Of a DNA stretch of 23,679 bases, positions 5,685 to 23,539 are shown piece by piece. The translations under genes were made by a program, and so were the position numbers. The stretch is from a virus, in IMG/VR virus record IMGVR_UViG_3300030012_003031, positions 20,269-43,947 of that record. One strand, written 5' to 3'. The notes under the pieces are model-generated. The model had not been told where the DNA came from, ran no database searches, and was given only the letters and a program-made list of their open reading frames with translations. Each line of letters starts with the position of its first letter. Position 1 is the stretch's first letter.

Positions 5685-5690
5685 TATAAT
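5662..5690 (+). promoter_or_regulatory. Probable sigma70 promoter of the glycan operon
   Basis: A perfect -10 TATAAT (5685-5690) stands 17 bases after a weak -35, TTGCAT (5662-5667; 3 of 6). Transcription would start near 5697, 16 bases before ATG 5713. It is the only promoter-like site I see directly before the 21-gene block. Confidence 0.6.
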
Positions 5691-5712: not shown

Positions 5713-6762
5713 ATGTCTGAATATACAAAAACTGCACTGGTTCTCGGTGCAGGTGGCTTTATTGGAAGTCATATGGTAAAACGACTCCGCGAAGAGGGAT
5801 ATTGGGTTCGTGGAGTCGATCTTAAGCAACCAGAATTTTCCTCCACTAGAGCGAATGAGTTTGTTCTTGGTGATTTGAGGGATGTTTCTTTTGTTAAACG
5901 AGTCCTTGAGTTCAAAGGATATCGTGGAAACTTTTACAACAGCGTTCCTGAAAGACTGATTGAATCTTTTGATGAGATCTATCAGTTCGCTGCAGATATG
6001 GGTGGTGCAGGTTTTGTTTTCACTGGTGAGAACGATGCAGACATTATGCATAATTCTGTATCCATCAATCTAAACGTTCTCGAAGAGCAACGTAGGTTGA
6101 ATGAAAGAACTGAGGTAAACAAGACTAAAATCTTCTACTCTGGTTCTGCCTGCATGTATCCAGAACACAATCAACTTGATCCTGATAACCCCGATTGCCG
6201 TGAAGAATCAGCATACCCCGCCAATCCAGACTCAGAATACGGATGGGAAAAACTATTCAGTGAGCGTCTCTACTTCGCTTACAATCGTAATTACGGCATT
6301 CCTGTTAGGGTTGCTCGCTACCACAACATCTTTGGCCCCGAGGGAACCTGGGAGGGTGGAAGAGAGAAAGCTCCAGCTGCAATCTGCCGTAAAGTCGCTG
6401 AACTACCGGCGCTCGGTGGATCCATCGAGGTGTGGGGAGATGGCTTACAGACTCGTTCCTTCCTGTTCATTAATGAATGCGTTGAAGCAACTAGAAGGTT
6501 GATGGATAGTGACTTTATTGGCCCTGTCAATATTGGTTCTGAAGAGATGGTTACCATCAATCAGTTAGTAGAGACTACCGCTAAAGTTTCTGGTAAGGTT
6601 GTTCAGAAGCGTCATAAACTTGATGCACCACTTGGTGTTCGTGGACGCAACTCTAACAATGATCTTATTCGCGAAAAACTTGGATGGGATTATTCTCAAA
6701 CACTTGAAGAAGGAATCGGATTGACGTATACTTGGATTGCTAAGCAGGTATCAACACGATGA
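5713..6762 (+). CDS. GDP-mannose 3,5-epimerase
   Basis: Extended short-chain dehydrogenase/reductase of 349 residues that converts GDP-D-mannose to GDP-L-galactose (and GDP-L-gulose), using bound NAD. The Rossmann motif GAGGFIG is at residues 12-18. QFAADMGGAGF and an HNSVSINLNVLE stretch follow. SGSACMYPE carries C147 and EYGWEK carries Y176 and K180. RYHNIFGPEGTWEGGREKAPAAICRK carries K219, and GDGLQTRSF and LDAPLGVRGRNS come later. C147 and K219 match the acid/base pair known from the plant enzyme (C145 and K217 in Arabidopsis), which separates this from generic epimerases. A short insert near residues 65-85 looks unusual. It is the first gene of the block and overlaps the next as ATGA. 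Host GDP-mannose would be the substrate. Confidence 0.9.
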   Translation: MSEYTKTALVLGAGGFIGSHMVKRLREEGYWVRGVDLKQPEFSSTRANEFVLGDLRDVSFVKRVLEFKGYRGNFYNSVPERLIESFDEIYQFAADMGGAGFVFTGENDADIMHNSVSINLNVLEEQRRLNERTEVNKTKIFYSGSACMYPEHNQLDPDNPDCREESAYPANPDSEYGWEKLFSERLYFAYNRNYGIPVRVARYHNIFGPEGTWEGGREKAPAAICRKVAELPALGGSIEVWGDGLQTRSFLFINECVEATRRLMDSDFIGPVNIGSEEMVTINQLVETTAKVSGKVVQKRHKLDAPLGVRGRNSNNDLIREKLGWDYSQTLEEGIGLTYTWIAKQVSTR

Positions 6763-7610
6763 AAGTTACAATATTAGGTTCAAGTGGACAGATTGGTGCT
6801 TATCTAGTTGAGCATCTTTCTGCTAAAGGGCATGATGTTACGCCATTTGATATTGCTCGACATCATGGTGAAGATATGACTCAGATTCCGAATCATAATC
6901 TTGATCGTGTTATCAAGGATGCGGACTTTGTATTTGTTCTTGCTTTTGATGTTGGTGGTTCTAGATATCTCAAAAAGTATCAACATACGTTTGACTTTGT
7001 TAATAATAACTCTCGTATGATGGTAAACGTTTTTAACTTGCTTAGCAAATATCATAAACGTTTTGTCTTTGCATCTTCGCAAATGAGTAATATGAGTTAC
7101 TCTCCTTATGGTGTACTAAAGCGTGTTGGTGAACTCTATACCAGCACTTTGAAAGGATTGACTGTCAAGTTCTGGAATGTCTATGGCATTGAGAAGGACA
7201 TGGAAAAAGCACACGTCATCACTGATTTCATCCGTAAAGGGTTTGAGGAGGGTGATTTTGATATGATGACTGATGGCACTGAAGAGCGTCAGTTTCTCTA
7301 CGCAGAGGACTGCTGCGAGGCACTGGAGACAATAATGGAAAGTTATACTGACTTCAAACCAGAGGATCCACTTCATATCACATCTTTTAATGCAACCACG
7401 ATTAAAGATGTTGCAGCAATTATTATGGGACAATTCCGTATGATTGATAAGGAAGTACACATCAAACCTGGACTTGCAAAGGACAGTGTTCAGATGGATA
7501 AACGTAATGAAGCTGACACTTATATCACTGGGTGGTGGTTACCTAAAACCAACATGCAAAATGGTATTGCAAAAGTATTCAAAGAAATGAAAAAAAATTA
7601 TGGCTACTAA
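6759..7610 (+). CDS. NAD-dependent nucleotide-sugar epimerase/dehydratase (SDR family)
   Basis: 283 residues of the extended SDR fold. The cofactor loop is GSSGQIG (7-13). FVLAFDVGGS (58-67) resembles the region after beta-4 in sugar epimerases. FASSQMSN holds the Ser region, and YGVLK (117-121) is the catalytic YxxxK. FWNVYG and a TDGTEERQFLYAEDC stretch match the sugar-nucleotide binding half. It is shorter than typical family members (about 310-350). The substrate cannot be read from sequence. Lying directly behind the GDP-mannose 3,5-epimerase (ATGA overlap), it may act on that enzyme's product or make another activated sugar. An 11-base overlap links it to the next gene. Confidence 0.82.
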   Translation: MKVTILGSSGQIGAYLVEHLSAKGHDVTPFDIARHHGEDMTQIPNHNLDRVIKDADFVFVLAFDVGGSRYLKKYQHTFDFVNNNSRMMVNVFNLLSKYHKRFVFASSQMSNMSYSPYGVLKRVGELYTSTLKGLTVKFWNVYGIEKDMEKAHVITDFIRKGFEEGDFDMMTDGTEERQFLYAEDCCEALETIMESYTDFKPEDPLHITSFNATTIKDVAAIIMGQFRMIDKEVHIKPGLAKDSVQMDKRNEADTYITGWWLPKTNMQNGIAKVFKEMKKNYGY

Positions 7611-8397
7611 TCTCACTGAAATTAGAAATTTTCTCAACGAACCTTACAATGATCTTGGTGTGAACGCCTGGATTTTTGCAGACTTGGTGAAGACATACAA
7701 GAATGCAAGATTTATGGATCTTGGAGTTCGTCTCGGTGCATCATCTGCAATTATGTCTATTAATGCTGATGACAACAATAATCAGGTGTGTGGTTGTGAT
7801 TTGAAGTTTGAGGGTTTTGAACGAACAGGTGCTCGTTTTGTTCAACCAAACTATATGTGTTACATGGCAGATAGTGTAACTCTTGGCAAAAACTGGGATG
7901 AAGATCCTTTTGACATTGTTTTTATTGATACAATTCATACCCGTGAACAGGTTCTTGCTGAAATATATTTTTGGATTGAAAATCTAAAAGAGGGTGGATA
8001 CCTTGTGTTTCATGATACACACTCAATTGCTCATAATGGTGAAGACATTGTTGAATCTGAATACACTTACGGAGATACCATCGGAGGAGTGAAGGTAAAA
8101 CGTCCTGATGTCGCTATCACTGATTTCTTTGGACTTTCTGAAAGTATTCGTGACAGGACTCAGTACGAAGACGACAATATTAAGATTGAGCATTACAAAC
8201 CATCTCACGGTATGACTTTTGTTCAAATCAAAAACTTAGACGCAATCAAAGAATATAAGAAAAATATTAATTGGGATCATGTCTTTGAAACTCGTAACTG
8301 GTTGAACGATCTTCACTTCAACACTGAAAATCCTAAATTTGTTGATTGGCAACAAGACATTCCTAACATTCAAAACGAACTTGTTATCACTCCATGA
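7600..8397 (+). CDS. SAM-dependent class I methyltransferase (Methyltransf_24-like)
   Basis: 265 residues. Motif I is FMDLGVRLGASS (38-49), an acidic residue (CGCDLKFEG) ends the second strand, and PFDIVFIDTIHTREQVLAE (103-121) followed by GGYLVFHDTH (132-141) is the IDxxH plus HDTH pattern of the Methyltransf_24 group, which includes sugar O-methyltransferases. The motif I glycines are degenerate (GVRLG for GxGxG). The C-terminal 80 residues are unassigned. In this setting O-methylation of a sugar is the likely job. It has no membrane segment. The start is inside the end of the preceding gene; the stop overlaps the next as ATGA. Confidence 0.78.
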   Translation: MATNLTEIRNFLNEPYNDLGVNAWIFADLVKTYKNARFMDLGVRLGASSAIMSINADDNNNQVCGCDLKFEGFERTGARFVQPNYMCYMADSVTLGKNWDEDPFDIVFIDTIHTREQVLAEIYFWIENLKEGGYLVFHDTHSIAHNGEDIVESEYTYGDTIGGVKVKRPDVAITDFFGLSESIRDRTQYEDDNIKIEHYKPSHGMTFVQIKNLDAIKEYKKNINWDHVFETRNWLNDLHFNTENPKFVDWQQDIPNIQNELVITP

Positions 8398-9221
8398 CGT
8401 TTCAAGTATCGCATTGGAGCGGTAGACTTGGTAATAATGTGCAGCAAGTTGCAAACTGCATTATGGCTGCCGAAAAATATCAGTCCACCTTCACACAAAA
8501 TTTAGATCATGATATTATTTCTAACTACACTGTTGACTTCAATAACGTGAATGTCTCCAATGTAAGTGGTAGAGGCAGATATTACTGTTGGGAACCACTT
8601 ATTCATTGTGAGAAAGGTATTCGCGAAGGAGGAAATGAGACAGGTGTAGATAGAGACTATATCTATGCCAATATGCATCGTATTTGTAAAGAGTATGTCG
8701 CACCTTTTCTAAAACTTCCTAGAAAGGAAACGATTGATGACAAAACAATTGTGATGCATTTGAGGAGTGGTGACAATTATCATCGCATCTTTAATCCTCC
8801 AACAAACTACGTTCCTAACCCTCTCATCTTTTATCTTAATTTGATTGAGAGTTTTGAGAAGTGTATTCTTATCACTGAACCTGATGATAAGAATCCTATT
8901 GTTCATGAGTTGAAGAAGATTGATAAGGTTCAGATTCAATCCTCTACAGTTGCAGAAGACTTTGCAACTTTGATGAGTGCTAAGAATGTTGCACTTTCTG
9001 GTGTTGGTACTTTTGCGATGGCAGCAGCACTCTGCTCAAGTAATATTGAGAATCTGTTCACTACAGATTTGCTGTTGACTGAGCACCTAAATTATACTAT
9101 GCTATTCAACACTGACGTTGATGTTCATGTGATGGAATTGGGAGATGATTATATTCCAGTCATTCCTTGCAGTTGGGCTAACACTGAAGAGCAAAGACAA
9201 TTTATTCTAGATTATAGATGA
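8394..9221 (+). CDS. Putative glycosyltransferase, distant fucosyltransferase (GT11-like) type
   Basis: 275 residues. The N-terminus WSGRLGNNVQQVANCIMAA resembles the GRLGNQ loop of GT11, and IVMHLRSGDNY (119-129) matches the HxRxGD nucleotide-sugar-binding motif shared by GT11 and other fucosyltransferases of this superfamily. LSGVGTFAMAAALCS could correspond to the later NSTFSWW region but has lost its Trp residues. Similarity is therefore confined to two motifs, and the donor is unknown. It overlaps both neighbours as ATGA. Another family with the same N-terminal loop is possible. Confidence 0.62.
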   Translation: MTFQVSHWSGRLGNNVQQVANCIMAAEKYQSTFTQNLDHDIISNYTVDFNNVNVSNVSGRGRYYCWEPLIHCEKGIREGGNETGVDRDYIYANMHRICKEYVAPFLKLPRKETIDDKTIVMHLRSGDNYHRIFNPPTNYVPNPLIFYLNLIESFEKCILITEPDDKNPIVHELKKIDKVQIQSSTVAEDFATLMSAKNVALSGVGTFAMAAALCSSNIENLFTTDLLLTEHLNYTMLFNTDVDVHVMELGDDYIPVIPCSWANTEEQRQFILDYR

Positions 9222-10207
9222 AAATCTTCGTTACAGGTTGTGCTGGTTTGCTCGGTGCAAACTACACACGACATCTTCTTGCCTCTGGGCATGAAGTAAT
9301 AGGTATTGATGATCTCTCTGGAGGGTACAAAGCGTTTGTACCTAAAGGGGAGAAATTTACGTTTGTGAAATTAAACCTAGAAAAGAGGAAGAAAGTTGCT
9401 GAACTTTTTCAGGAGCATCAGCCTGATGTTCTCATTCATTTCGCTGCGTATGCGGCTGAAGGACTTTCTCCTTTTATTCGTAATTTTAATTATCGTAATA
9501 ATCTTATCGTTTCCGCTAATCTAATTAACGAGTGTATTACTTATGGAACGAAGATTATCTTTACTTCTAGTATGGCAGTCTATGGAGATCAAACTCCTCC
9601 ATTCACTGAAGACAAGCGTCCACAACCCGTTGATCCATATGGTATCGCAAAGTACGCCGTTGAGTGTGATTTAAAACTTGCTCACGAGCAGTTCGGACTT
9701 CGATATAACATTGTTCGCCCTCACAATGTTCTTGGCATCTATCAAAATATTTGGGATAGGTATCGTAACGTAATCGGTATTTTCATTCGTAAGGCACTTA
9801 ACGGACAACCTATTCTTGTATACGGTGACGGAGAACAGACTCGTGCTTTCTCTGATATCAAATACTACATGGAACCTTTTGATAAACTTCTTACGGGACA
9901 CGATGGTGAGACATTCAATATTGGTGCTGACAAATACTTTACACTGAATGAAGTTGCAACGACTGTTCAGACTATTGCTGCAAAGTATGGATATGAAGTT
10001 TCTATTGAGCATGGAGAGCCACGCCATGAAGTAAAACACGCTTATTGTGATCACACTAAAGCAAAGACACTGCTGAACTTCCAAGACAATACAAACCTTA
10101 CAGAACTTATTGAAAGTATGTTTGTTTGGGCAATGAAACAACCAAACAGAAAGGTAAAGGATATGGAATATGAAGTCACAAAGGACATTTATGATTATTG
10201 GAAATGA
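9218..10207 (+). CDS. UDP-glucose 4-epimerase-like nucleotide-sugar epimerase
   Basis: 329 residues, extended SDR. TGCAGLLG (6-13) is the TGxxGxxG cofactor loop and IDDLSGG (30-36) ends strand two as in GalE. HFAAYAAEGLS (74-84), FTSSMAVYG (115-123) and PYGIAK (140-145; catalytic Y141 and K145) follow. VRPHNVLG and VYGDGEQTRAFSDI match the substrate half. The expected reaction is inversion at C4 of a UDP-hexose, or of a related sugar such as the uronic acid made by the two dehydrogenases encoded later in the block. It overlaps both neighbours as ATGA. The exact substrate is inference. Confidence 0.85.
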   Translation: MKIFVTGCAGLLGANYTRHLLASGHEVIGIDDLSGGYKAFVPKGEKFTFVKLNLEKRKKVAELFQEHQPDVLIHFAAYAAEGLSPFIRNFNYRNNLIVSANLINECITYGTKIIFTSSMAVYGDQTPPFTEDKRPQPVDPYGIAKYAVECDLKLAHEQFGLRYNIVRPHNVLGIYQNIWDRYRNVIGIFIRKALNGQPILVYGDGEQTRAFSDIKYYMEPFDKLLTGHDGETFNIGADKYFTLNEVATTVQTIAAKYGYEVSIEHGEPRHEVKHAYCDHTKAKTLLNFQDNTNLTELIESMFVWAMKQPNRKVKDMEYEVTKDIYDYWK

Positions 10208-10890
10208 TTGATTACGAGGGGCAATATCCAACAGGATCTGAGAGATATTTTGCCGATAAACATGATAGATTAAAGTGTAAGTTTCTTGGATCTGAGGACA
10301 TTATTGAAAATCATTCTCAGTCAATGCAAGATATGTTTGTTCTCTCTGTACTAAACGGAAAGAAAATAGGAACTTATGTTGAGATTGGAGCAGATCGCCC
10401 AAGGGTTATTAATAATACTTGGCTACTTGAATCGATGTATGATTGGGAGGGAGTTTCGTTTGAAATTGATCCCATAAAAGTAGATTACTTTAATACAATT
10501 AGACAAAACAAATGTATTTGTCAGGATGCCACTTCGTTCGATTATAAATCTCTTTTTGTAGAGAGAAATTACCCAAAGCAAATTGATTATTTGCAATTAG
10601 ATTGTGATCCTCCTCAGATTACTCTTGAGTGTTTGAAAAAGTTACCTCTTGATGATTATAGGTTTTCAATTATCACTTTTGAAACAGATTTGTATGCAGG
10701 AGGACATGCAGTTCAAAAAGAACAATGGGAAATTTTATGTAGTTTGGGGTATAAAAGAATTGCAAAAAATGTGAAAAATGAGGGTAACCCTTATGAGGAC
10801 TGGTGGATTGATCCATTAGTCATATCTGAAGACAGATATATGCCTTTTATGATCGATGATGTAGAATTTAGTAAAATTATTTTAGACTGA
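10204..10890 (+). CDS. FkbM-like SAM-dependent methyltransferase (putative)
   Basis: 228 residues. SQSMQDMFVLSVL (38-50) followed by GTYVEIGADRPRVINNTWLLE (56-76) and GVSFEIDP (83-90) matches the FkbM-family opening (SQ-GQD..., hEIGA-xP...SNT..LE, hxhExxP). IDYLQLDCDPPQITLECL fits its second acidic motif. FkbM proteins methylate sugar or lipid hydroxyls. Here the loop after EIGA is DRPRVINNT, so binding of SAM is not guaranteed. An in-frame TTG at 10198 would add two residues, but ATG 10204 gives the usual ATGA overlap with the preceding gene. The stop and next start share one base (TGATG). Confidence 0.7.
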   Translation: MIDYEGQYPTGSERYFADKHDRLKCKFLGSEDIIENHSQSMQDMFVLSVLNGKKIGTYVEIGADRPRVINNTWLLESMYDWEGVSFEIDPIKVDYFNTIRQNKCICQDATSFDYKSLFVERNYPKQIDYLQLDCDPPQITLECLKKLPLDDYRFSIITFETDLYAGGHAVQKEQWEILCSLGYKRIAKNVKNEGNPYEDWWIDPLVISEDRYMPFMIDDVEFSKIILD

Positions 10891-11747
10891 TGAAAGTTTT
10901 TGATTCGTTTATTTTCTTCAATGAACTTGAGTTGCTTGAGATGCGACTCAATATTCTAGGGGATGTTGTAGACAAGTTTGTTCTTACAGAGTCTCCATTT
11001 ACTGTCAGTGGTAATGAAAAACCACTGTATTATGAGGAAAATAAAGATAAATTTGCTAAGTGGCACGACAAAATCGTGCATAATATCACCGAAGAGATTC
11101 CAAATGACTTCTCTCATATGATGGAGAAGAGCAAATTTCACATTGGATACGGTGAACGTGATCCATATGGACAGCGTTTCATTGATTTACCCATCAGATT
11201 TCAACGTGCAGTGTATAATCGTAATGCAAGTTGCTTTGGTATTGAGAAGGCTGGTGCAGAGGATAGTGACATCGTGATGACTAGTGACGCTGATGAAATT
11301 ATCAATCCATATGTCTTAGAGGACACCTCTTGGTTCAATCCTGACAACCATTACGTCGCTGTTGGTAATGCTTATTACTACAAATTGAACTTCCTGTATC
11401 AAGATGACTGGATGGGAACACGTCTTTGCACTTGGAAACACCTCAAAGGCACCACAATTGATCAACATCGCCAAGATCACGTCAAAGCACACAAGATTGA
11501 AAACGCATCTTGGCACTTTAGTTTCTTAGGTAACGCTGAGAATTTCAAACTGAAACTTGCTTCCTATGAACATACAGAAAACAATACTGCTGCTAACATT
11601 GCTAATGCAGAAGAAAAAGTAGAGAAAGGACTTGATCCTTTGAATCGTGGTATGACTTACAGAGCAGTTCCCATTGACGAAAGTTACCCGGAATATATTC
11701 AAAACAACCAGGAGAAGTACGCAGAATTTATTAAACCATGGAATTAA
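10890..11747 (+). CDS. Glycosyltransferase family 17-like protein
   Basis: 285 residues. The opening MKVFDSFIFFNELELLEMRLNIL and VDKFVLTESPFTVSGNEKPLYY is typical of GT17 (beta-1,4-mannosyl-glycoprotein N-acetylglucosaminyltransferase group). Then IVMTSDADEI (128-137) holds the D133-x-D135 metal and donor site. The middle has several Trp and His residues (WKHLKG, WHFSFLG) seen in the family. In animals GT17 adds a bisecting GlcNAc; in phages and bacteria the acceptor is unknown. There is no signal peptide or membrane anchor, unlike the animal Golgi enzymes, so it would act in the cytoplasm. It overlaps the next gene by 10 bases. Confidence 0.82.
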   Translation: MKVFDSFIFFNELELLEMRLNILGDVVDKFVLTESPFTVSGNEKPLYYEENKDKFAKWHDKIVHNITEEIPNDFSHMMEKSKFHIGYGERDPYGQRFIDLPIRFQRAVYNRNASCFGIEKAGAEDSDIVMTSDADEIINPYVLEDTSWFNPDNHYVAVGNAYYYKLNFLYQDDWMGTRLCTWKHLKGTTIDQHRQDHVKAHKIENASWHFSFLGNAENFKLKLASYEHTENNTAANIANAEEKVEKGLDPLNRGMTYRAVPIDESYPEYIQNNQEKYAEFIKPWN

Positions 11748-12670
11748 TTGAAGGTGTAGCACTATCAGAACTCTGTGATTACTCGTTTGGCGATCAAGCG
11801 GGACAGTGGAGTGGTATCTACACACATTTTATGAAAGACGCTAACTTGACGAACACTGAGTTTGTCAACAAAGTATTTGAAATTAAGAAAAGCAGAGATT
11901 ATATGACTCTGTTTATTGATAATATCCGTTTATATAATAGAAAGATTGATGAGGTAAAACCCGAGGATTGGCCTGTTGTTAGAGCGATGATGCAGAAAAG
12001 TAATCTTCTTAGTCTGTGTAGTAACTTCATTGATATGAAGTTTATCATCTTCACAAATCTAGAGGATACACCACTTGATAAGCACATTTTAACTTGCTTA
12101 CCCAATAATGTTACTCGTGTTATCGCCGTAAATTCTGTCGTTGTAGGTAATAAAGTGATTCCTGCCCCTTATGGTGTGCAAAGAAGGATGAGTCCTAGCG
12201 ATGATAGAATTGAAGTCTTGAAATCATACATGGATAAGGACAATAAATTAAGTCCTAGATCATTTAGATTGTTATATGTTGGTGTGAATGAAAACTCACA
12301 TGAAGAAAGGAAGGGATTAACACAACAATTTATTAATGAACCTTGGGCAAGTGTAGAGACACAAAGGGTTGACTTTGAAACCTACCTTGATAGAATGTGG
12401 AGGTGTAAGTTTGTCTTGTGTCCAAGAGGAAACGCTATTGATTGTCACAGAAACTGGGAAACGATCTATATGCGTCGTGTTCCAGTGATGAAACGCACAC
12501 CCTTTTTGGAAGAATTGTATAAAGATTATCAAGTTCTTTTTGTAGATAACTATTCTGAGGTAACTGAACAACTGCTTATAGATAATAATCAGATGTTTTT
12601 GGATGCTCAAACGCAAGATTTATCCAAACTTGATCTTAACAACTTTTTTGAAACATGGAAAAAACCTTAG
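11738..12670 (+). CDS. Exostosin-like glycosyltransferase (GT47-type C-terminal motif)
   Basis: 310 residues. The diagnostic stretch is residues 224-255: KFVLCPRGNAIDCHRNWETI then RRVPVMKRTPF, the exostosin-domain pattern of K-F-x-L-x-P-R-G, D-x-x-R-x-WE, and P-V. It is preceded by RLLYVGVNENSHEERKGL, which resembles the strand and loop before it in such proteins. The N-terminal 160 residues are not recognisable, though IIFTNLEDT and a PYGVQRR turn look like part of a GT-B fold. Exostosin relatives add glucuronic acid, GlcNAc, galactose or other sugars, so the donor is open. The block encodes UDP-glucose dehydrogenase-family enzymes, making a uronic acid donor possible. It overlaps both neighbours (10 and 16 bases). 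Confidence 0.75.
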   Translation: MELIEGVALSELCDYSFGDQAGQWSGIYTHFMKDANLTNTEFVNKVFEIKKSRDYMTLFIDNIRLYNRKIDEVKPEDWPVVRAMMQKSNLLSLCSNFIDMKFIIFTNLEDTPLDKHILTCLPNNVTRVIAVNSVVVGNKVIPAPYGVQRRMSPSDDRIEVLKSYMDKDNKLSPRSFRLLYVGVNENSHEERKGLTQQFINEPWASVETQRVDFETYLDRMWRCKFVLCPRGNAIDCHRNWETIYMRRVPVMKRTPFLEELYKDYQVLFVDNYSEVTEQLLIDNNQMFLDAQTQDLSKLDLNNFFETWKKP

Positions 12671-13386: not shown

Positions 13387-13392
13387 TAAATA
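13385..13392 (+). promoter_or_regulatory. T4-type late promoter motif AATAAATA
   Basis: AATAAATA fits the NATAAATA form of the late -10 element in T4-like cyanophages. It lies 30 bases before ATG 13422, in the only real gap of the 18-kb gene block. The element would let the second half of the block be transcribed late, apart from the first. Confidence 0.6.
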
Positions 13393-13421
13393 ACACAAAG
13401 AAAAACCATTGATGCTTTAAA

Positions 13422-14555: not shown

Positions 14556-14556
14556 T

Positions 14557-15156: not shown

Positions 15157-15157
15157 T

Positions 15158-16048: not shown

Positions 16049-16755
16049 TGCCTAAAATTAATCTACCAGATGTCACATTGATATCTGTAGACACTACTGA
16101 TGATCTTTTAGGCACTCTTAAGGGTGTCTATACTAGTATGTCCGGCATCAATTATGGTGCTGTCAAATTAATCACTACACAAGAGCAGATTGACAAGAAT
16201 CCTCACCTTGTAGAAGAAGGTATAACGATGGAAACTCCTGTTCGTGATATCAAAAATTATGTTGACTATAATTATTACGTAATTTATCACCTGCACGAAC
16301 ACGTAGACACTTCACATTGTCTTTTGGTTCAACCAGATGGTTTTGTGTTGTTCCCTGATAAATGGGATGATGAATGGTTAAAGTATGATTATATTGGAGC
16401 ACCTTGGGCATATGTAGAAGACGCATACATTGATCCATTTGGAAGACACTGGCGTGTTGGTAACGGTGGATTTTCACTGAGGAGTAAAGCTTTCTTAGAA
16501 GTTCCCACTAAGGTTGAAGTTCCTTGGGAAACAAACAATAGTGACTTCTACTGGATGCCAGAAGGTGTGGTAAACTATCATGAGGACGGAAACGTCTGTG
16601 TTCACAATCGACATATCTTCCAATATCAGGGTATGCAGTATGCACCCGTAGATGTTGCTGTCAGGTTCTCACAGGAAACCAGAGTTCCTGAATCAGAAGG
16701 TATCATACCTTTTGGTTTTCACTATAGACTGCCCCCTGGAGTTGAATTAGGATGA
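16045..16755 (+). CDS. DUF5672-type putative glycosyltransferase
   Basis: 236 residues. HCLLVQPDGFVLFPDKWDDEWLKYDYIGAPW (91-121) and WRVGNGGFSLRSKAFLE (136-152) are the signature of DUF5672 as I recall it: VIQxDGFV, YDYIGAPW and GNGGFSLRS. VAVRFSQETRV and PFGFHYRLP close the domain. The GNGGFSLRS loop is shared with GT-A glycosyltransferases, where it shapes the acceptor site. The N-terminal 70 residues are a Rossmann-like beginning (DVTLISVDTTD). ATG 16045 or 16048 could be used; the first overlaps the preceding stop. The donor is unknown. Confidence 0.77.
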   Translation: MMPKINLPDVTLISVDTTDDLLGTLKGVYTSMSGINYGAVKLITTQEQIDKNPHLVEEGITMETPVRDIKNYVDYNYYVIYHLHEHVDTSHCLLVQPDGFVLFPDKWDDEWLKYDYIGAPWAYVEDAYIDPFGRHWRVGNGGFSLRSKAFLEVPTKVEVPWETNNSDFYWMPEGVVNYHEDGNVCVHNRHIFQYQGMQYAPVDVAVRFSQETRVPESEGIIPFGFHYRLPPGVELG

Positions 16756-17546
16756 TTGGTATTATTGGAAATGGTTTTGTTGGTAATGCAGTTTACCAAA
16801 ACTTTAGAGACAAAGTATCTACAAAGGTATATGATGTAGATAAAAATAGAAGTCTTAATACTTTAGACGAAGTTATTAATCAGGACTTTGTATTTGTATG
16901 TCTTCCAACTCCCATGACATCTGATGGCAGTTGTGACATATCAATTCTAGATGAATTTTTTAGTACACTACCCAAGATTGATAATGAAGAAACTATTTTT
17001 GTTATTAAATCAACAGTGCCTGTAGGCACAACCAAGAGACTTGCTTTAAATCATAGAGTTATTCATAATCCAGAGTTTCTTACTGCAAGAAATGCAGTAA
17101 ATGATTTTGTAAATTCTGATAGAAATATTATTGGTGGTGAGAGAGAACTTGCTGAAAAATTTGGAGAAATGTTTTTTCTTAACTTTCGCAATATACCAAG
17201 TATGATTGTATCTTCGGATGAGAGTGAGGCAATTAAATATTTTTCTAATACTTTTCTTGCTTACAAAGTGGCATATTTTAATAAAATGTATGACTTCTGT
17301 CAAAGTTTTGAACTTGATTATGCTAATGTTGCAAGAGGTGTCTCTGCCGATCATCGCATTGGAACATCTCACACTAAAGTTCCGGGTATAGATAGTGATC
17401 GTGGATTTGGTGGAACTTGTTTTCCGAAAGATCTCAACTCTTTGATTGTTCAGATGGAGAGTGCTGGAATAAATGCTGACATGCTTAAAGAAGTATGGAA
17501 GTATAATGAACAGATAAGAACTTGTATTGATTGGATAGTAACATGA
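16752..17546 (+). CDS. Short UDP-glucose/GDP-mannose dehydrogenase-family protein lacking the C-terminal domain
   Basis: 264 residues; family members usually have 390-450. GNGFVG (6-11) binds NAD. FVCLPTPMTSDGSCD (48-62), KSTVPVGTT (86-94), NPEFLTARNA (106-115), EAIKYFSNTFLAYKVAYFN (159-177) and GFGGTCFPKD (218-227, catalytic C223) follow in the normal order. The catalytic half is complete, but the C-terminal UDP-binding domain is gone: the protein stops about 40 residues after the catalytic Cys, and the next gene starts within its stop (ATGA), so no frameshift is hiding the rest. It could oxidise a smaller or different sugar, pair with another subunit, or be a regulator. A second, longer family member is encoded at 21579. 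Confidence 0.85.
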   Translation: MIGIIGNGFVGNAVYQNFRDKVSTKVYDVDKNRSLNTLDEVINQDFVFVCLPTPMTSDGSCDISILDEFFSTLPKIDNEETIFVIKSTVPVGTTKRLALNHRVIHNPEFLTARNAVNDFVNSDRNIIGGERELAEKFGEMFFLNFRNIPSMIVSSDESEAIKYFSNTFLAYKVAYFNKMYDFCQSFELDYANVARGVSADHRIGTSHTKVPGIDSDRGFGGTCFPKDLNSLIVQMESAGINADMLKEVWKYNEQIRTCIDWIVT

Positions 17547-18358
17547 TAGGACATAATCATATCGGTAAGAACGGAAGGTTTGGTAACCAGATGTTTCAGT
17601 ATGCAGCAACCAGGGGTATTGCACATAATCAAGAGGTTGACTACATCATTCCTGATGGCCCTAAGACAGATGAAGAGTTTAATGATGAGGAGAATCAACA
17701 TAAACTCTTTATGGCATTCAATATGACTGGTGCTAAGAACATTGGATTGTTAGAAGCACCCTATCGTAAAGAAGCAACTTTTAGATTTGATAGTGAGTTA
17801 TTTGAAAACTGTGATGACAACTTAAATCTCTATGGTTACTTTCAATCAGAGGAGTATTTTGCTCACATAGAAGATGAGATCCGTGAAGACTTCACATTTA
17901 AACCAGAGGTTCAAAAACTGTGCAAAGAAATTTGGAAAGAGATTGTAACTGATGAAGGACACACCGAAGCAATTGCCCTCCATGTACGACGCACTGATCA
18001 CCTCATCAAACCAACTTTCCATCCAGTCCTCCCCATCTCCTACTATGAAGAGGCACTTAGGAGACTGCCTAAAGACATCCCTGTCTTTGTATTCACGGAT
18101 GATCCATCGTGGGCGTTCGGACACTCATTCTTTGAATCTGATCGTTTCTTTATCTCTGAGAGTGACAACGTACACGATATGTGCCTCATGTCAATGTGTA
18201 ACTACAACATCATCGCAAACTCAACCTTTTCTTGGTGGGGAGCATGGCTAGCAGGACATGATAATGTGATTGGCCCTAAACTCTGGTTTGGCCCTGATGG
18301 TGAGGATCCTACAGACATTTACATCGATCGTTGGGAGTATCTTGATGTCGCAAATTAG
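17543..18358 (+). CDS. GT11 glycosyltransferase (alpha-1,2-fucosyltransferase family)
   Basis: 271 residues. GRFGNQMFQYAATRGIA (11-27), NLYGYFQSEEYF (95-106), IALHVRRTDH (144-153), and NSTFSWWGAWLA (226-237) followed by IGPKLWFG are the complete GT11 set. In the HxRRGD motif the Gly is Thr (T151), which is unusual in a loop that holds the GDP phosphates. ATG 17543 is chosen for its ATGA overlap with the preceding stop; a TTG four codons earlier is less likely. The donor would be GDP-L-fucose in known enzymes; GDP-L-galactose is possible here. The 3' end overlaps the next gene by 14 bases. Confidence 0.9.
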   Translation: MIGHNHIGKNGRFGNQMFQYAATRGIAHNQEVDYIIPDGPKTDEEFNDEENQHKLFMAFNMTGAKNIGLLEAPYRKEATFRFDSELFENCDDNLNLYGYFQSEEYFAHIEDEIREDFTFKPEVQKLCKEIWKEIVTDEGHTEAIALHVRRTDHLIKPTFHPVLPISYYEEALRRLPKDIPVFVFTDDPSWAFGHSFFESDRFFISESDNVHDMCLMSMCNYNIIANSTFSWWGAWLAGHDNVIGPKLWFGPDGEDPTDIYIDRWEYLDVAN

Positions 18359-19103
18359 TATTTGTATTCCCACTTATGAATATAAGGGTAGGGGAGTTGA
18401 GTTTTTAGCAGAGTTATTTGATTCTATTGAACGTCAAACTTTTATTGACTTTGATATTGTTATCTCTGATCATAGTAAAGATGATGTCATTGAACAGTGG
18501 TGTCGTCACTGTCATTATGACTTTGAGATTACATACATTAGAAATCCAAATGGACGTGGTTTTCAGGCACCAAATACAGACTGTGCCATAGAAAATGCTG
18601 AGGGTGAAATCATTAAACTGATCTATCAGGATGATGTATTTGTGGATGAGAATGCATTGCAAAAAATCTATGATTCTTTTGAAAGTGGTGCCAAGTGGTT
18701 GATTCATGGATTCACTCACACCAAAGATGGTGTTGAAACCCATCGAAACTGTGCTCCAAAGTGGAGTTCTAGAATGCTTGAAGGTGATAATTTACTTGGA
18801 AGTCCATCATGCACTGCATATTTAAATGGAGCATATTTGGGTATGGATGATGAGATGAAACTTCTAATTGATACTGAATTGTATCATCGTATGAGAATGA
18901 AACATGGTATGCCTCTAATGTTGGATGATATTCTCATCGCAAATCGAGAGCATGATGCTAGAATGAGTTCGGGTGGTGTTAATTATGATGCTACGATTTC
19001 AGATTCATCAAGAACTTGGTTGGTAAATAAAGCAGAAATAGATCACATCTATAAGAAACACTCAGAATTTTTTGTGACAAGAAAGTATCCCGATGAAAAC
19101 TGA
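18345..19103 (+). CDS. Glycosyltransferase family 2
   Basis: 252 residues from ATG 18345. ISICIPTYEYKGRGVEFLAELFDSI (4-28) is the classic GT2 opening, DFDIVISDHSKDD (35-47) gives the first acidic site, NPNGRGFQAPNTDCAIENAEGEIIKLIYQDDVF (67-99) leads to the metal-binding acidic motif (QDD for DxD), and MLDDILIANREHD is in the acceptor region. Retained GT-A features suggest an active inverting enzyme. The frame is open upstream to 18270, but that part lies inside the GT11 gene. No membrane helices are present, so it is a soluble cytoplasmic enzyme and not an initiating or processive type. It overlaps both neighbours (14 and 11 bases). Confidence 0.87.
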   Translation: MSQISICIPTYEYKGRGVEFLAELFDSIERQTFIDFDIVISDHSKDDVIEQWCRHCHYDFEITYIRNPNGRGFQAPNTDCAIENAEGEIIKLIYQDDVFVDENALQKIYDSFESGAKWLIHGFTHTKDGVETHRNCAPKWSSRMLEGDNLLGSPSCTAYLNGAYLGMDDEMKLLIDTELYHRMRMKHGMPLMLDDILIANREHDARMSSGGVNYDATISDSSRTWLVNKAEIDHIYKKHSEFFVTRKYPDEN

Positions 19104-19905
19104 TTTAACTGACGCAACTTTTATTATTCCAATTCGTATTGAGTCTGAAGATAGACTGAGAAATGTAATTACATCAGTTGCATTTCTTTTAAACAACTTT
19201 AACACGAGTATAATCATTAAAGAGGTTGATAAAACATCCGTATTTAAAGAAAGAGCACTTCCTCAACTTGAAAGTTTCTTTGGAGAAGTTAACGTAAAAC
19301 ATATCTTTGAAGAGAGTGATGAACCTTTGTTTCATAGACAAAGAGTTCTTAATGAAATGATTATGGAGGCAGACACTGATATTGTTGTCAATTATGACTG
19401 CGATGTGATTCTTCCTATGGAATCTTATGTTACTGCCTACATGGGGATCAAGGAGAAAATTTATGATGTGGTTTATCCATATGGTAGTGGGATGTATCAA
19501 AGAAGAGTGAACGCAGAAGACGGAGTGGTGTCTGCCTTTCTTGATAGTAATGATTATAGTTTCCTTGATAGAGCGTCAGACAAACACACTTCTGATTTTG
19601 GTTGGGCTCAGTTTTTTAGACGTAGTGTTTATATTAATGGTGGTATGGAGAATGAAAACTTCCGTGCATATGCCCCTGAAGATAAGGAACGATATTTTAG
19701 ATTTACAACACTGGGATATAAAGTAGGTAGGATTGATAATGTTGTCTATCATTTAGAACACGCAAGGGGAGAAAACTCCTGGTTTACTAATCCTCATATG
19801 CAAGATAATCTTCAAGAGTGGGATAAGATTTGTAAGATGGACAAAAAACAACTTTTAGAGTATTATTCTAATCAAAAGTATCTAGAGAAGTATGCTCGCA
19901 TTTAA
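19093..19905 (+). CDS. GT2-like glycosyltransferase with galactosyltransferase-type C-terminal motif
   Basis: 270 residues. TFIIPIRIESEDRLRNVITSVAFLL (9-33) is a GT-A start, DIVVNYDCDVILP (96-108) is the DxD metal site (D102-x-D104), and FGWAQFFRRSVYINGGMENENFRAYAPEDKERYFR (169-203) matches the Glyco_transf_7C pattern, in which G-G-x-(x)-E-x-F-x-x-(W/Y)-G-x-E-D binds acceptor and donor. Here AYAPED replaces WGxED. VYHLEHARG follows, a metal-binding His region in that group. It probably transfers a hexose or N-acetylhexosamine; the specific sugar is open. It overlaps both neighbours (11 and 14 bases). Confidence 0.82.
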   Translation: MKTDLTDATFIIPIRIESEDRLRNVITSVAFLLNNFNTSIIIKEVDKTSVFKERALPQLESFFGEVNVKHIFEESDEPLFHRQRVLNEMIMEADTDIVVNYDCDVILPMESYVTAYMGIKEKIYDVVYPYGSGMYQRRVNAEDGVVSAFLDSNDYSFLDRASDKHTSDFGWAQFFRRSVYINGGMENENFRAYAPEDKERYFRFTTLGYKVGRIDNVVYHLEHARGENSWFTNPHMQDNLQEWDKICKMDKKQLLEYYSNQKYLEKYARI

Positions 19906-20746
19906 TCAACTTGGAAACCTAGGTAGACTAGGTAATCAGATGTTTGAGTATGCCGCTCTGCGTGGTATTGCTACTAAACATAATTATGAATGGTGTATTC
20001 CTCCATTTAATGCTCAAAGTATTGAGAACTATAGTCTTCACTATTGTTTTAAAATGGAGGATGTTAAGAAACAAAATCTTCAACATAGAAATCTCGGATT
20101 TGTTCAGGAAAGGTTCTTTCACTTTGATGAACATCTAGTAGAGAAGTGTCCTGATAATGTCAGTCTTAATGGATTTTTTCAATCTGAAAAATACTTTAAG
20201 AATGTAGAAGACATCATACGTAGCGAGTATACTTTTCATGATGAACATCTTGAACCCTGTAAAAAAGTTATGGAGGAGTTCAAAGAACAAGAACCTATTA
20301 TGCTCCATGTTCGACGAGGTGATCCTAATCTAACTGATCCCCGTGGATTTAAGTGGGCATACACTCAGTGTTCTTCTATGCATCCACCTCAAACCATTGA
20401 TTATTATGAGAGAGCTCTTGCTGAATTTGATGATAATCAACCCGTGTTTGTATTCTCTGATTCTGTTGATTGGGTAAAGGAACAGGAGTTTTTCTCTGGA
20501 GATAGATTTTTAATTTCTGAACCTGTTGATAAATATCCCGATGGTTCTTTTACACCATATGCTGATTTGTGCTTGATGTCTTTATGTTCTCATGCTATCA
20601 TTGCTAATAGTAGTATGAGTTGGTGGGGAGCCTGGTTACAGACAAACCCCAATAAAAAAATTATTGCTCCGAAGAATTGGTTCGGGCCTGCATATGCAGA
20701 TAAAGATACTGCTGATCTATACTGTCCTGATTGGATTGTTCTATGA
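19892..20746 (+). CDS. GT11 glycosyltransferase (alpha-1,2-fucosyltransferase family), canonical motifs
   Basis: 284 residues. GRLGNQMFEYAALRGIA (11-27), LNGFFQSEKYF (92-102), IMLHVRRGDPN (136-146, intact HxRRGD), and NSSMSWWGAWL (239-249) followed by IIAPKNWFG. This is the most canonical GT11 of the window. GT11 enzymes are inverting GT-B types that move L-fucose from GDP-L-fucose to the O2 of galactose or similar. No GDP-fucose synthesis is encoded in the window, so the donor would come from the host or be GDP-L-galactose from the first enzyme of the block. The start lies 14 bases inside the preceding gene; ATGA links it to the NAD synthetase gene. Confidence 0.93.
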   Translation: MLAFNQLGNLGRLGNQMFEYAALRGIATKHNYEWCIPPFNAQSIENYSLHYCFKMEDVKKQNLQHRNLGFVQERFFHFDEHLVEKCPDNVSLNGFFQSEKYFKNVEDIIRSEYTFHDEHLEPCKKVMEEFKEQEPIMLHVRRGDPNLTDPRGFKWAYTQCSSMHPPQTIDYYERALAEFDDNQPVFVFSDSVDWVKEQEFFSGDRFLISEPVDKYPDGSFTPYADLCLMSLCSHAIIANSSMSWWGAWLQTNPNKKIIAPKNWFGPAYADKDTADLYCPDWIVL

Positions 20747-21582
20747 ACAGAATTAATGATTATACTGAACTGGAAACTAGGATTATCTCCTGGATTCGTG
20801 AATATGCTGATAATAATTTTATCAAAGCACTAGTTGTTGGTGTTTCTGGTGGTATTGATTCAGCTGTAGTCTCTACCCTTTGTGCTAAGACTGGCATTCC
20901 AACCTTTGTGTTAACAATGCCTCTTACATCTAAACTGGATAACACTATTCTTTCTACCGCACATGCGACATATCTTAATGATAACTATGATAATGTTGTA
21001 ACGCAAAATGTTGAACTCTCTAGCACCTATAATCAACTATTGAAATCAATTGATTGGTGGACAGATATTAACGGTGGTGAAAAGGGAACTTATACTTCTA
21101 ATAGTCTTGCTAATGCAAATACAAAATCAAGACTTCGTATGGTAACTTTGTATCAAGTAGCAGGCACTGTTGGTGGTATTGTTGTAGGAACTGGTAATAA
21201 AGTAGAAGATTATGGTATCGGGTTCTACACTAAATATGGTGATGGCGGTGTGGACATTGCACCTATCGCTGATCTGTACAAAACAGAAGTATGGGAACTT
21301 GGTAGACACCTAGGTGTCGATCAGCGTATCATTGATGCTGCTCCTACAGATGGATTGTGGGAAGATAGTAGAACTGATGAAGCGCAGGTAGGTGCATCCT
21401 ATGAGGATCTGGAATGGGTGATGGAGAGTGATATCTTCAGAAACGCAAATCATCCAGAATCTGCAGTTATGTGGAGAGGACAATCACTGACTGAATCACA
21501 GCGAAACGCTATTAAACAGTATGGAAAGTTTCACCGTCAGAACAAGCATAAAATGATCTCTATTCCTACATTCAAACTATGA
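20743..21582 (+). CDS. nadE: NAD(+) synthetase, NH3-dependent type
   Basis: 279 residues from ATG 20743. Amidates nicotinic acid adenine dinucleotide to NAD with ATP. GVSGGIDSAVV (33-43) is the ATP-pyrophosphatase loop. ANTKSRLRM (125-133) leads to GIVVGTGNKVEDYGIGFYTKYGDGGVDIAPIADLYKTEV (145-183), which is the NadE signature (GTxNKxE, then TKYGDGGVDI-PIADLxKTxV). The length suits the single-domain form without a glutaminase part. The sequence is specific enough to separate it from the amidotransferases of sugar pathways that share the first loop. Placed between a GT11 gene and a UDP-glucose dehydrogenase-family gene with ATGA overlaps on both sides, it may keep NAD up for the dehydrogenases (two NAD per sugar) and epimerases. 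Confidence 0.9.
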   Translation: MNRINDYTELETRIISWIREYADNNFIKALVVGVSGGIDSAVVSTLCAKTGIPTFVLTMPLTSKLDNTILSTAHATYLNDNYDNVVTQNVELSSTYNQLLKSIDWWTDINGGEKGTYTSNSLANANTKSRLRMVTLYQVAGTVGGIVVGTGNKVEDYGIGFYTKYGDGGVDIAPIADLYKTEVWELGRHLGVDQRIIDAAPTDGLWEDSRTDEAQVGASYEDLEWVMESDIFRNANHPESAVMWRGQSLTESQRNAIKQYGKFHRQNKHKMISIPTFKL

Positions 21583-22715
21583 AAATTGGTGTAATTGGTG
21601 CGGGGCGACTTGGGATTTGCTTCGCACTTCTTTGTGAACAAGCAGGGTATGATGTATTAGTCTCTGATATTCGCGAAGATTACGTCGCGGATCTTATGGA
21701 AAAGAAGATCAAGACTAATGAACCTGATGTTCAAGAATTCCTGAGTCGTTCAATTAATTTCTCAGCCACAACTAGTAACGAAAAAGTAATTCAAGAGTGT
21801 GACATCATTTACACTCTGGTAGCAACTCCTTCTCTACCCAGTGGTGACTATGATGTCTCTGCTGTATGGAGAGTTGTTGATGATATTGTAGAGTCTGGTG
21901 TTCAAGGAAAGTCTTTCGTAGTCGGATGCACTACGAATCCTGGCGATTGTGAGATGTTCCAAGACAGGCTCACAAAGCACGGTTGGGAAACTTTCTATAA
22001 CCCAGAATTTATTGCTCAAGGATCTATCATCAAAGATCTCCAGAACGCTGATATGGTTCTGATCGGTGGCAAGTGGGGTAAGACTTTTAATAAGTTGTCA
22101 GAACTTTATCATAAGATCCAAGTGACTAAACCTCAGATCAGTCTGATGTCTAGAACCGCCTCAGAGGTGGTTAAAATCGCCACTAACTGCTTCCTTACGA
22201 CTAAGATTAGTTATGCCAACATGATGGGGCAGGTGCTTGCTCTAGACGGCATGGAAGACGAGATTGATACCGTACTGGATGCCATCGGTGCAGACAGTCG
22301 AGTTGGTAAAAAGTATCTAAAGTTTGGTTATGGATTTGGTGGGCCTTGTCTCCCTAGAGATAATCGTGCTTTTGCTGCTTATGCTAAGAGTCTTGGTGTT
22401 GAGTATAATTTAGGTGCTACAACTGATAGTTTTAATGAAGTACATAACAAATTCTTGCTTGACTATGTGATTACTAAAAACCACACCAGTCTTCCATTCT
22501 ACTTTGATTATGTTTCCTACAAGAAAGGAACTGATATTTTGACTGAGAGTCAACAATTTAAACTTTGTAAGGCACTTCTTGATGAGGGTTATACTGTTTA
22601 CATTAATGACAACGAAACTATTTTAAATCGTGTGAGAGATACACTTTATGATCAATACTATGATAGAGTGAGGTTTGGAGAACCCAAAGAAAAAGTATAC
22701 AAAGTTGATATCTGA
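21579..22715 (+). CDS. UDP-glucose/GDP-mannose 6-dehydrogenase family protein
   Basis: 378 residues. GAGRLG (7-12) binds NAD, VATPSLPSGDYD (81-92) replaces the usual (T/S)P(P/T) loop, NPEFIAQGSIIKDL (141-154) holds the catalytic Glu, SEVVKIATNCFLTTKISYANMMGQV (195-219) the Lys/Asn helix, and YGFGGPCLPRDNRAF (251-265) the nucleophile C257. A shortened C-terminal domain is present: SYKKGTDILTESQQFKLCKALLDEG (313-337) is the YKxxTDDxRESxx...L...G pattern. It would oxidise a nucleotide hexose to its uronic acid with two NAD. VGCTTNPG replaces the common STVxPG, a possible sign of altered substrate. ATGA links it to nadE, and TGATG to the last gene. Confidence 0.88.
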   Translation: MKIGVIGAGRLGICFALLCEQAGYDVLVSDIREDYVADLMEKKIKTNEPDVQEFLSRSINFSATTSNEKVIQECDIIYTLVATPSLPSGDYDVSAVWRVVDDIVESGVQGKSFVVGCTTNPGDCEMFQDRLTKHGWETFYNPEFIAQGSIIKDLQNADMVLIGGKWGKTFNKLSELYHKIQVTKPQISLMSRTASEVVKIATNCFLTTKISYANMMGQVLALDGMEDEIDTVLDAIGADSRVGKKYLKFGYGFGGPCLPRDNRAFAAYAKSLGVEYNLGATTDSFNEVHNKFLLDYVITKNHTSLPFYFDYVSYKKGTDILTESQQFKLCKALLDEGYTVYINDNETILNRVRDTLYDQYYDRVRFGEPKEKVYKVDI

Positions 22716-23539
22716 TGACTTTTGCTACTACTGATAAAAACAAATCTGCGTTCAAACTCCGCAACTTTGGCCCCATTTACTATTTGAATCTGGATGATCA
22801 ACCAGAGAGACGAGAGTATATGGAGGATCAATTTAAGTATTGGGAGATTGATAATTATGAACGTATCTCTGCTTACGATGGTAGAGAGGATGACTTAGGG
22901 CACGTTATTAAGGGTGCCTATCCTAATATGATGACATCGGGTGAGATTGGATGCACCACTTCTCACCTGAAAGCACTCAAACATTGGTTAGAAACTTCTG
23001 ACAGTGATTATGCTATAATCATGGAAGATGATTGCAGTCTTGAGACAGTCAAGTGCTGGAACTTCATATGGGACGACTTTGTTGCATATGCTCCATACGA
23101 CTATGATGTCATTCAACTTGCAATTATTTGTACTGGTGATATTCATGTCAAAATTCATAAGCGGTTTGTGAATGATTTCTCCACCGCTTGCTACATGATC
23201 ACTAGACGCCACGCACAGAAACTGATAGACTTTCATGTGCGCGGTAACAAATACAAACTGGATAATGGAGTCAAGCCGCGTCCTGTTGCAGATGATTTAA
23301 TCTACAATTCTGGTAACACTTATTCCATTCCACTTCTTTTGTATAAGACGGACTTAGGTTCTAGCATTCACCCAGAACACATTGATGCTTTCCATGTAGG
23401 TAACTACAAAGCACAGTTGAACTACTGGACAACTAACGGTGCAAGGATGAGTATCAGAGAGCAAATGGATTATGATCCATATTTGGGTAGAATTACAGAG
23501 AATTCTGCTGCACAACAGGCGGAAAACCCATCCAATTGA
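22715..23539 (+). CDS. Glycosyltransferase family 25 (LPS-type)
   Basis: 274 residues. IYYLNLDDQPERREYMEDQF (21-40) with RISAYDGRED, then SGEIGCTTSHLKALKHW (75-91) and YAIIMEDDCSLE (99-110, acidic E104-D-D) form the complete GT25 signature (hxLxRxxxR, GExGCxxSH, hxEDD). FSTACYMITRRHAQKLI follows as in LPS beta-galactosyltransferases (the LgtB/LpsA group). The donor may be UDP-galactose, which an epimerase encoded at 9218 could supply. The C-terminal 60 residues, including a polar tail ending NPSN, are not part of the usual domain. It is the last gene of the block, 12 bases before the composite terminator/promoter. Confidence 0.9.
   Translation: MTFATTDKNKSAFKLRNFGPIYYLNLDDQPERREYMEDQFKYWEIDNYERISAYDGREDDLGHVIKGAYPNMMTSGEIGCTTSHLKALKHWLETSDSDYAIIMEDDCSLETVKCWNFIWDDFVAYAPYDYDVIQLAIICTGDIHVKIHKRFVNDFSTACYMITRRHAQKLIDFHVRGNKYKLDNGVKPRPVADDLIYNSGNTYSIPLLLYKTDLGSSIHPEHIDAFHVGNYKAQLNYWTTNGARMSIREQMDYDPYLGRITENSAAQQAENPSN

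Follow-up and report, generated by a model that had tools for sequence, protein, structure and literature searches.

The virus record IMGVR_UViG_3300030012_003031 of IMG/VR carries, close to its right end, a block of 21 genes for glycan assembly, which we read, with a probability of about 60%, as a surface-glycan island of the cyanophage lipopolysaccharide (LPS) cluster type that would remodel the surface of the infected cell through the exporters of the host. The block occupies positions 5713-23539 of a 23,679-base stretch (the window), itself the right end (bases 20269-43947) of the 43,947-base record, which stops 140 bases 3' of the block. At the DNA level the record is closest to T4-like cyanophages, among them S-SM2, Bellamy and RB11-B; its nrdAB shares about 80% identity with that of phages such as S-SM2 and S-SCSM1, and the 418 records matched all come from cyanophages or marine viruses. 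On this sequence evidence, the genome that carries the block is assigned to a T4-like cyanophage (Kyanoviridae).

Such LPS gene clusters were previously reported in T4-like cyanophages (PMC3037559; PMC2984593), and excerpts of the literature read this kind of cluster as a modification of the host surface (PMC2984593; PMC9602691). The site agrees with that of LPS clusters, near hli03 and close to tRNAs: the tRNAs lie in the window, and hli and pstS are found in relatives, from which alone this right flank is known because the contig ends after the block. The initial annotation of the window had already recognized a glycan assembly block without export machinery in a T4-like cyanophage, and this part stands, the export families being absent; its further step to a cytoplasmic acceptor and a sugar coat on the virion is not supported.

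The window was compared with 12 isolated phages picked for holding both a GDP-mannose 3,5-epimerase (GME), the left end of the block, and a glycosyltransferase of family 25 (GT25), its right end, so that the presence of both in all 13 genomes is by choice. The block site is fixed in the 12 isolates, between nrdAB-tRNAs and a small gene that follows GT25. Clustering of frames of at least 80 amino acids, with an overlap filter, gave 79 protein families in the 13 blocks, 36 of them present in one genome only and three in all 13 (the short-chain dehydrogenase/reductase, SDR, family, GT11 and GT25, which include the GME and GT25 used to pick the genomes); in these counts the window is represented by 20 of its 21 genes (GT2 was lost), other blocks may miss small or overlapping genes, and the annotated NadE of Bellamy falls outside the NadE family. 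Relative to the nearest contig, identity per gene varies from 48 to 98% and jumps between neighbours (77 to 98, then down to 48%). The conserved ends and these jumps argue for exchange gene by gene, and the question whether the block swaps as a unit is answered in the negative, since the ends are kept and the interior is replaced piecemeal. A clean empty site was not found, Syn1 and S-SSM4 being arranged differently. Purifying selection is strong in all 20 measurable genes, with ratios of nonsynonymous to synonymous substitution (dN/dS) of 0.025-0.28 against the nearest relatives compared (the second methyltransferase being cut one codon past its likely start); synonymous sites are saturated in the 21st gene.

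Export functions and timing of expression

None of the 21 products has a credible membrane segment, which agrees with the initial annotation. A crude scan found one hydrophobic window in each of four listed frames, compared with three in psbA and six in psaA by the same method, and these four are not credible: judging by position, two lie at the N terminus and stem from TTG starts placed too far upstream, and the other two coincide with Rossmann or P-loop strands. None of the 229 block proteins from the 13 genomes showed more than one hydrophobic segment. The suggested lack of a flippase, polymerase, ligase or initiator was likewise confirmed in a search of 14 records (this record, 12 complete relatives and the pelagimyophage HTVC008M): Polysacc_synt (PF01943), Polysacc_synt_3 (PF13440), Wzy_C (PF04932) and ABC2_membrane (PF01061) matched in 0/14 each, as did the initiating-transferase families Bac_transf (PF02397) and Glycos_transf_4 (PF00953), and the six families matched in 10-14 of 14 control genomes. 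Wzy proteins are highly variable, which makes a family search alone weak, and the hydrophobicity scan fills this gap for S-SM2 and SynMITS9220M01. In these two complete genomes, frames of at least 100 amino acids with at least three segments were of two sorts and reached a maximum of six segments: frames of 268-360 amino acids that by eye start like psbA/psbD, and a few frames of 107-128 amino acids, taken as chance.

An ABC exporter was considered and rejected. ABC_tran was matched weakly in 12 of 13 records, in four of them over the cut-off, with no ABC2 membrane partner; the matching frames measure either 314-332 amino acids, which fits the clamp loader (annotated at about 314 amino acids in S-SSM4), or 570-583 amino acids, which we take to be T4 gp46-like proteins. 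Blocks of this kind usually lack an exporter. To argue from this lack to a cytoplasmic acceptor and a virion coat is not supported, since the same is seen in every block-bearing cyanophage examined and host exporters could be borrowed.

Promoter-like elements were found around the block. A -10-like element, TATAAT, lies before it (5685-5690, + strand), and TATNAT occurs within 75 bp 5' of GME in 11 of the 13 genomes as against 53 of 216 internal gene starts (p 2e-5; mean of 3.5/13 in shuffled sequence). The T4-type late promoter motif TATAAATA, by contrast with this, is absent from the 200 bases 5' of GME in all 13 genomes and lies just 3' of the block in the window (23562-23569, + strand; the only match there). 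It occurs within 250 bases 3' of the block in 7/13, six of these at 22 bases past the GT25 stop, and a one-letter variant was seen by eye in S-SM2 and P-TIM68. This pattern points away from the late, virion-building programme, as far as consensus elements can indicate. In one cyanophage strain, which we take to be P-HM2, auxiliary metabolic genes were reported to be expressed exclusively with the middle cluster (PMC5082946), whether or not that phage has such a block.

Transcription would thus start from a sigma70-like promoter before GME in early or mid infection and read through a 21-gene operon. Host GDP-mannose and UDP-glucose would be converted, judging by homology, into GDP-L-galactose (by GME), UDP-glucuronate (by a UDP-glucose dehydrogenase, UGD) and epimerised UDP-sugars. 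Four fucosyltransferase-type enzymes would probably use the GDP-L-galactose, and the other transferases, the methyltransferases and the radical SAM enzyme may finish the oligosaccharide. The latter would be assembled on, or added to, a lipid-linked glycan initiated by the host, and a flippase, ABC exporter, polymerase or ligase of the host would export it. The altered surface would probably block adsorption of competing phages or change grazing, as has been proposed in the literature.

Alternative acceptors and products

Several observations weigh against the remodelling of the host surface. Enzymes made early may yet modify virion proteins at a later stage. Promoters were called by consensus match, the single TATAAATA of the window is within chance (1.6 expected), and the motif also occurs inside the block in 2/13 genomes; the late motif alone was therefore rejected as evidence, and only its fixed 22-base offset counts. 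Additional sugar genes lie 5' of GME in at least four relatives (S-SM2, S-SSM7, RB11-B and S-SCSM1), so that in these phages the set as a whole begins before GME. The model of gmd, from the GDP-fucose pathway, matches 5/13 records at 1e-10, four of them under the cut-off. The small gene after GT25, Phage_OMP, was dropped as proof of a surface function, because it is far more widespread than GME (463 phage records against 37) and has another setting in S-SSM4, which makes it a mere neighbour. Finally, cyanobacterial LPS was reported to be devoid of heptose and KDO (3-deoxy-D-manno-octulosonate) (PMC4515613), yet several sister blocks contain heptose-annotated genes, and the product would thus not be a plain copy of host LPS.

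The lack of exporter, polymerase/ligase and initiator families in the 14 records would also be expected if a capsid, tail or fibre protein were glycosylated in the cytoplasm, where an exporter is unneeded. We hold such a virion coat to be unlikely, but it deserves a serious hearing: the transferase at 8394 resembles protein O-fucosyltransferases, among others, and the only solved-structure match of the GT25 at the right end is R655 (E 2.5e-5) of mimivirus, a virus with glycosylated fibrils. However, the block is not preceded by a late promoter motif, family scans of its 21 products show no structural protein among them, GT25 is described by Pfam as a family of LPS biosynthesis, and the titles and abstract openings of the literature searched report no cyanophage virion glycoprotein. 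Remodelling of the host surface is favoured over the virion coat by the published precedent and by the promoter-like elements, with a -10-like one before the block and a late motif missing there and often present after it, ahead of the next gene.

In a more specific version, a glycan peculiar to the virus, with much L-galactose and uronic acid (the latter possibly amidated), would be built on a virion protein in the cytoplasm, yielding an exporter-free, sugar-coated T4-like phage in which the NadE homologue may act on uronate, either besides making NAD or in place of it; this version appears distinctly unlikely. Slimmer still is the chance that the product belongs neither to the virion nor to host LPS and is a soluble or stored oligosaccharide, or another host glycan, for example an exopolysaccharide or an S-layer glycoprotein. 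The fold of the GT-A enzyme at 19093 comes closest to that of the capsule polymerase K4CP, and no lipid-carrier enzyme was found (PF02397 and PF00953, 14 records), but eleven different transferases would point to a hetero-oligosaccharide more than to a storage polymer.

Glycosylation of phage DNA against restriction was weighed as well, T4 being known to glucosylate its own DNA and one sister gene being annotated as a DNA beta-glucosyltransferase. It is very improbable, as neither the variety of the 11 transferases nor the uronic-acid enzymes suit this role and, according to a review, nothing points to modified nucleotides or glycosylated DNA in cyanomyoviruses (PMC2984593). The idea, raised in PMC3037559, that such genes are a non-functional "stuffer" serving headful packaging is contradicted by the dN/dS of 20/21 genes and by the frames free of internal stops, and is barely credible.

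Gene content and predicted chemistry

The 21 frames all lie on the + strand without internal stops, and 18 of the 20 junctions overlap by 1-16 bases once two over-long TTG starts are moved to ATG (14512 to 14542 and 18270 to 18345). The two other junctions are a 35-base gap (13387-13421) before the radical SAM gene and a one-base gap at 15157. The dense co-directional packing described in the initial annotation is thus real, and its tally of five sugar-nucleotide enzymes, 11 glycosyltransferases, three methyltransferases, a radical SAM enzyme and NadE agrees with Pfam, PHROG, NCBIfam and structure evidence, part of which is weak: the transferases at 11738, 12655 and 16045 fall in weak or unnamed families, and the methyltransferase at 10204 was called by inspection only.

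The sugar-nucleotide set comprises three SDRs and two UDP-glucose/GDP-mannose dehydrogenases, and no sugar-1-phosphate nucleotidylyltransferase was found in the block by homology and family scans of its proteins. The first gene (5713-6762), at the conserved left end, is a GDP-mannose 3,5-epimerase by homology. GME chains in solved structures match its product with phmmer at E 8e-84 to 2e-80 (7.8e-84 for Arabidopsis GME, 2c59), compared with 1e-20 for the next other enzyme, and the four catalytic positions, presumably Cys145, Lys217, Tyr174 and Lys178 in Arabidopsis, are aligned and identical in the phage protein. Homologues occur at E 1e-40 in 37 phage records, all from cyanophages or marine viruses, five of them unannotated. 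Most annotated cyanophage records label this gene UDP-glucose 4-epimerase or generic epimerase; it was already named GDP-mannose 3,5-epimerase in S-SCSM1 (PMC9602691). The second SDR is an NAD-dependent epimerase/dehydratase (6759-7610; PF01370, E 6.9e-24) and the third resembles UDP-glucose 4-epimerase (9218-10207; PF01370, E 1.3e-46; 4zrm, E 2.7e-38) under the galE cut-off. The first dehydrogenase is short and has no match to the C-terminal domain (16752-17546; PF00984, E 1.5e-23; PF03721, E 7.7e-19).

Pfam cut-offs are passed by the transferases of GT17 (10890-11747; PF04724, E 2e-24), GT11 (17543-18358 and 19892-20746; PF01531, E 5.5e-24 and 1.1e-23), GT2 (18345-19103; PF00535, E 6.3e-13) and GT25 (22715-23539; PF01755, E 1.8e-15), the last of which is matched by 97 phage records at E 1e-20. 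A further gene is GT11-like (15158-16048; phrog_2644, E 2.2e-13). The DUF3431 (12655-13386; PF11913, E 1e-9) and DUF5672 (16045-16755; PF18922, E 6.9e-18) proteins also pass their cut-offs and are likely transferases, both families being without assigned activity, and the product of 11738-12670 may be an exostosin/RXYLT1-like transferase (PF24785, E 5e-4, sub-threshold). Two products without a significant Pfam match were modelled with AlphaFold. That of 8394-9221 (pLDDT 87.7) falls in the fucosyltransferase superfamily, its Foldseek matches POFUT2, FUT8 and NodZ having TM-scores of 0.28-0.47, which indicates a fold class only. That of 19093-19905 (pLDDT 92.4), from a gene formerly without function, is on its predicted fold a GT-A glycosyltransferase, with K4 chondroitin polymerase as top structure match (K4CP, E 5e-11); its family, phrog_15655 (E 2e-117), is kept in 10/13 blocks.

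The block thus holds four fucosyltransferase-type enzymes (8394, 15158, 17543 and 19892). The GT11 family is present in 13/13 records and the gmd model exceeds its cut-off in one, S-SCSM1. Four such enzymes without gmd suggest GDP-L-galactose as their likely donor; GDP-fucose from the host is also possible.

The methyltransferases lie at 7600-8397 (Methyltransf_24, PF13578, E 4.1e-12), 10204-10890 (probably FkbM-like by eye, with no significant Pfam or NCBIfam match) and 14542-15156 (PF13489, E 7.8e-11). The last forms with the radical SAM gene (13422-14555; PF04055, E 3.6e-13) a pair (13422-15156) matched only in SynMITS9220M01 (88% for the radical SAM gene), many of the loci compared ending short of it. 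An internal -10-like element, GTATAATAAATA (13381-13392, + strand), the only GTATAATANATA match in the window, sits before this pair, at the only sizeable gap of the operon. In other blocks, a gene of Sf-FS3 annotated as CN hydrolase stands between two GT11 genes (L013:8151-9011; sub-threshold match, E 0.024), and an 839-amino-acid gene of SynMITS9220M01 (L011:17499-20018) joins a weakly glycosyltransferase-like part to a carbamoyltransferase.

NadE, an ammonia-dependent NAD+ synthetase (20743-21582; PF02540, E 8.7e-46), is directly followed by a UDP-glucose 6-dehydrogenase-type enzyme (UGD; 21579-22715; TIGR03026 over its cut-off; 3vtf, E 5.5e-35). The same order is found in 5/13 blocks, with one intervening gene in Bellamy. 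Among the NadE loci of IMG/VR, 64 of 74 carry a co-directional UGD, at a distance of up to 300 bases in 45 and of up to about 2.3 kb in 19; of the ten UGD-less loci, seven are on contigs that stop at NadE or no more than about 760 bases past it, and three (L073, L075 and L078) are not. The genes adjoin in reversed order in seven distant loci (L077, L079, L081-L083, L086 and L087). Besides the window (20743-22715), the loci surveyed for the pairing are L016-L089 and L157:8413-10313, from cyanophages, a pelagiphage and other viral contigs. No UGD was found beside cellular NadE in the best 80 of 595 stretches (0/80), with flanks of up to 6 kb on each side, some of them shorter. The viral and cellular loci differ with a Fisher p of 4e-33, which is only a guide, since the sequences are related and hence not independent. 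In the other direction the link is weaker: the 68 loci of the 19093 family, many of them partial, comprise 31 with NadE and UGD, 13 with UGD only, one with NadE only and 23 with neither.

The pairing raised the idea that NadE amidates uronate, a candidate we keep only for the sugar-coated version given above. The protein passes the TIGR00552 nadE cut-off and not the stricter whole-protein NadE models, and keeps the PP-loop and conserved residues. After a length filter, 78 of 80 cellular and 71 of 76 viral sequences were aligned, the viral ones being drawn from the window, the 74 loci and HTVC008M. Almost every position conserved among the 78 cellular homologues is retained in phage NadE, with few subfamily differences, which makes a true NAD+ synthetase likelier than an amidating enzyme. 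NAD supply for an NAD-using dehydrogenase would be the plain reading of the pairing. NadE and UGD genes were given as separate cargo in an excerpt of earlier work (PMC10452541), and the titles and abstract openings searched do not point out the pairing. Short genes labelled "NAD synthetase" near nrdB in Sf-CH8 (L005:5990-6427) and P-TIM68 (L007:3335-3769) lie outside the blocks and are not among the NadE matches, and their label may be wrong.

Left of the block are nrdA and nrdB, five tRNAs (3614-4960) and small genes. On its right, the window ends on the first three codons (ATG TTC AAA; 23671-23679, + strand) of a frame that corresponds in relatives to Phage_OMP (PF24653, "cyanophage outer membrane protein like beta barrel"), the proteins of relatives at this place beginning with MFK or MIK. 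Five copies of this small gene were scanned and score 2.4e-46 to 6.5e-52, the remaining copies align with them, and in 9/12 isolates it directly follows GT25, as read from annotated loci. Outside the window, the record encodes an NdhD-like protein (NADH:quinone oxidoreductase chain 4) of 511 amino acids with 11 hydrophobic segments (L001:3910-5445, bases 3910-5445 of the record; PF00361, E 1.3e-64). It is matched by 22 records of the phage collection, the three from cyanophages S-8S56, S-8S53 and S-SCSM2R being 83-86% identical. The sole TATAAATA of the stretch L001 (L001:17019-17628) stands about 40 bases 5' of a frame of 189 amino acids that looks structural by eye.

Comparison with known systems

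Large sugar islands of ocean cyanophages have long been known, and the new element here is the inner gene set. The LPS cluster of P-SSM2 was reportedly first described in 2005. The present analysis argues against dead weight, fixes the ends of the block and its likely transcription unit and shows that the absence of an exporter is usual. It also proposes a testable chemistry, in which GDP-L-galactose from a mostly misnamed epimerase would feed fucosyltransferase-like enzymes and a uronic acid would be made beside an NAD synthetase, a pairing that is viral and not seen near the cellular NadE genes examined. Excerpts of the literature found on cyanophage sugar islands name no glycan product. If the phage does rewrite the surface, this would change which others can infect or eat the infected cell.

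The block resembles the LPS clusters of P-SSM2, S-SSM7 and S-SM2, as excerpted from PMC3037559, in phage group, in its location near tRNAs and on the hli/pstS side and in its many transferases and sugar-nucleotide enzymes. With S-SM2 and S-SSM7, the two compared here, it has the GT11 and GT25 families in common, and no export genes were found in them. Of the shared cluster set (T4-GC 260, 265, 266, 304, 305, 307 and 308), homologues of GT11 (260) and GT25 (266) occur in the window, none of whose genes falls in the families assigned by gene order to 304, 305 and 307 of S-SM2; 265 and 308 are SDRs, of which the window has three of its own. Likewise by gene order, S-SM2 has kinase, nucleotidyltransferase and phosphoheptose isomerase families that are not represented in this block, whereas the block has, compared with clusters of that type, NadE and two UDP-glucose dehydrogenases, the radical SAM enzyme and methyltransferase, GT17, DUF3431 and DUF5672. 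The cell-wall set of S-SCSM1 (PMC9602691) is similar: a single block at the corresponding site holds GME, GT25, fucosyltransferases and methyltransferases. S-SCSM1 has gmd and GDP-fucose synthase in addition, whereas gmd does not exceed its cut-off in the 12 other records tested, including this one.

In the pelagimyophage HTVC008M, a phage of SAR11, a UDP-glucose/GDP-mannose dehydrogenase comes immediately after NadE, together with a methyltransferase and a carbamoyltransferase, a few genes past nrdB. An excerpt on pelagimyophages places 63 of 162 LPS-related proteins in a host recognition cluster (PMC7029224). These phages differ in having a host of another phylum and a smaller set. Bacterial O-antigen and capsule loci usually carry Wzx/Wzy or ABC exporters together with initiating transferases, and exchange their inner glycosyltransferase genes between conserved ends. 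Unlike them, the block has no exporter or initiator that we could find, but it is built in the same manner, with its ends kept and its inner genes exchanged.

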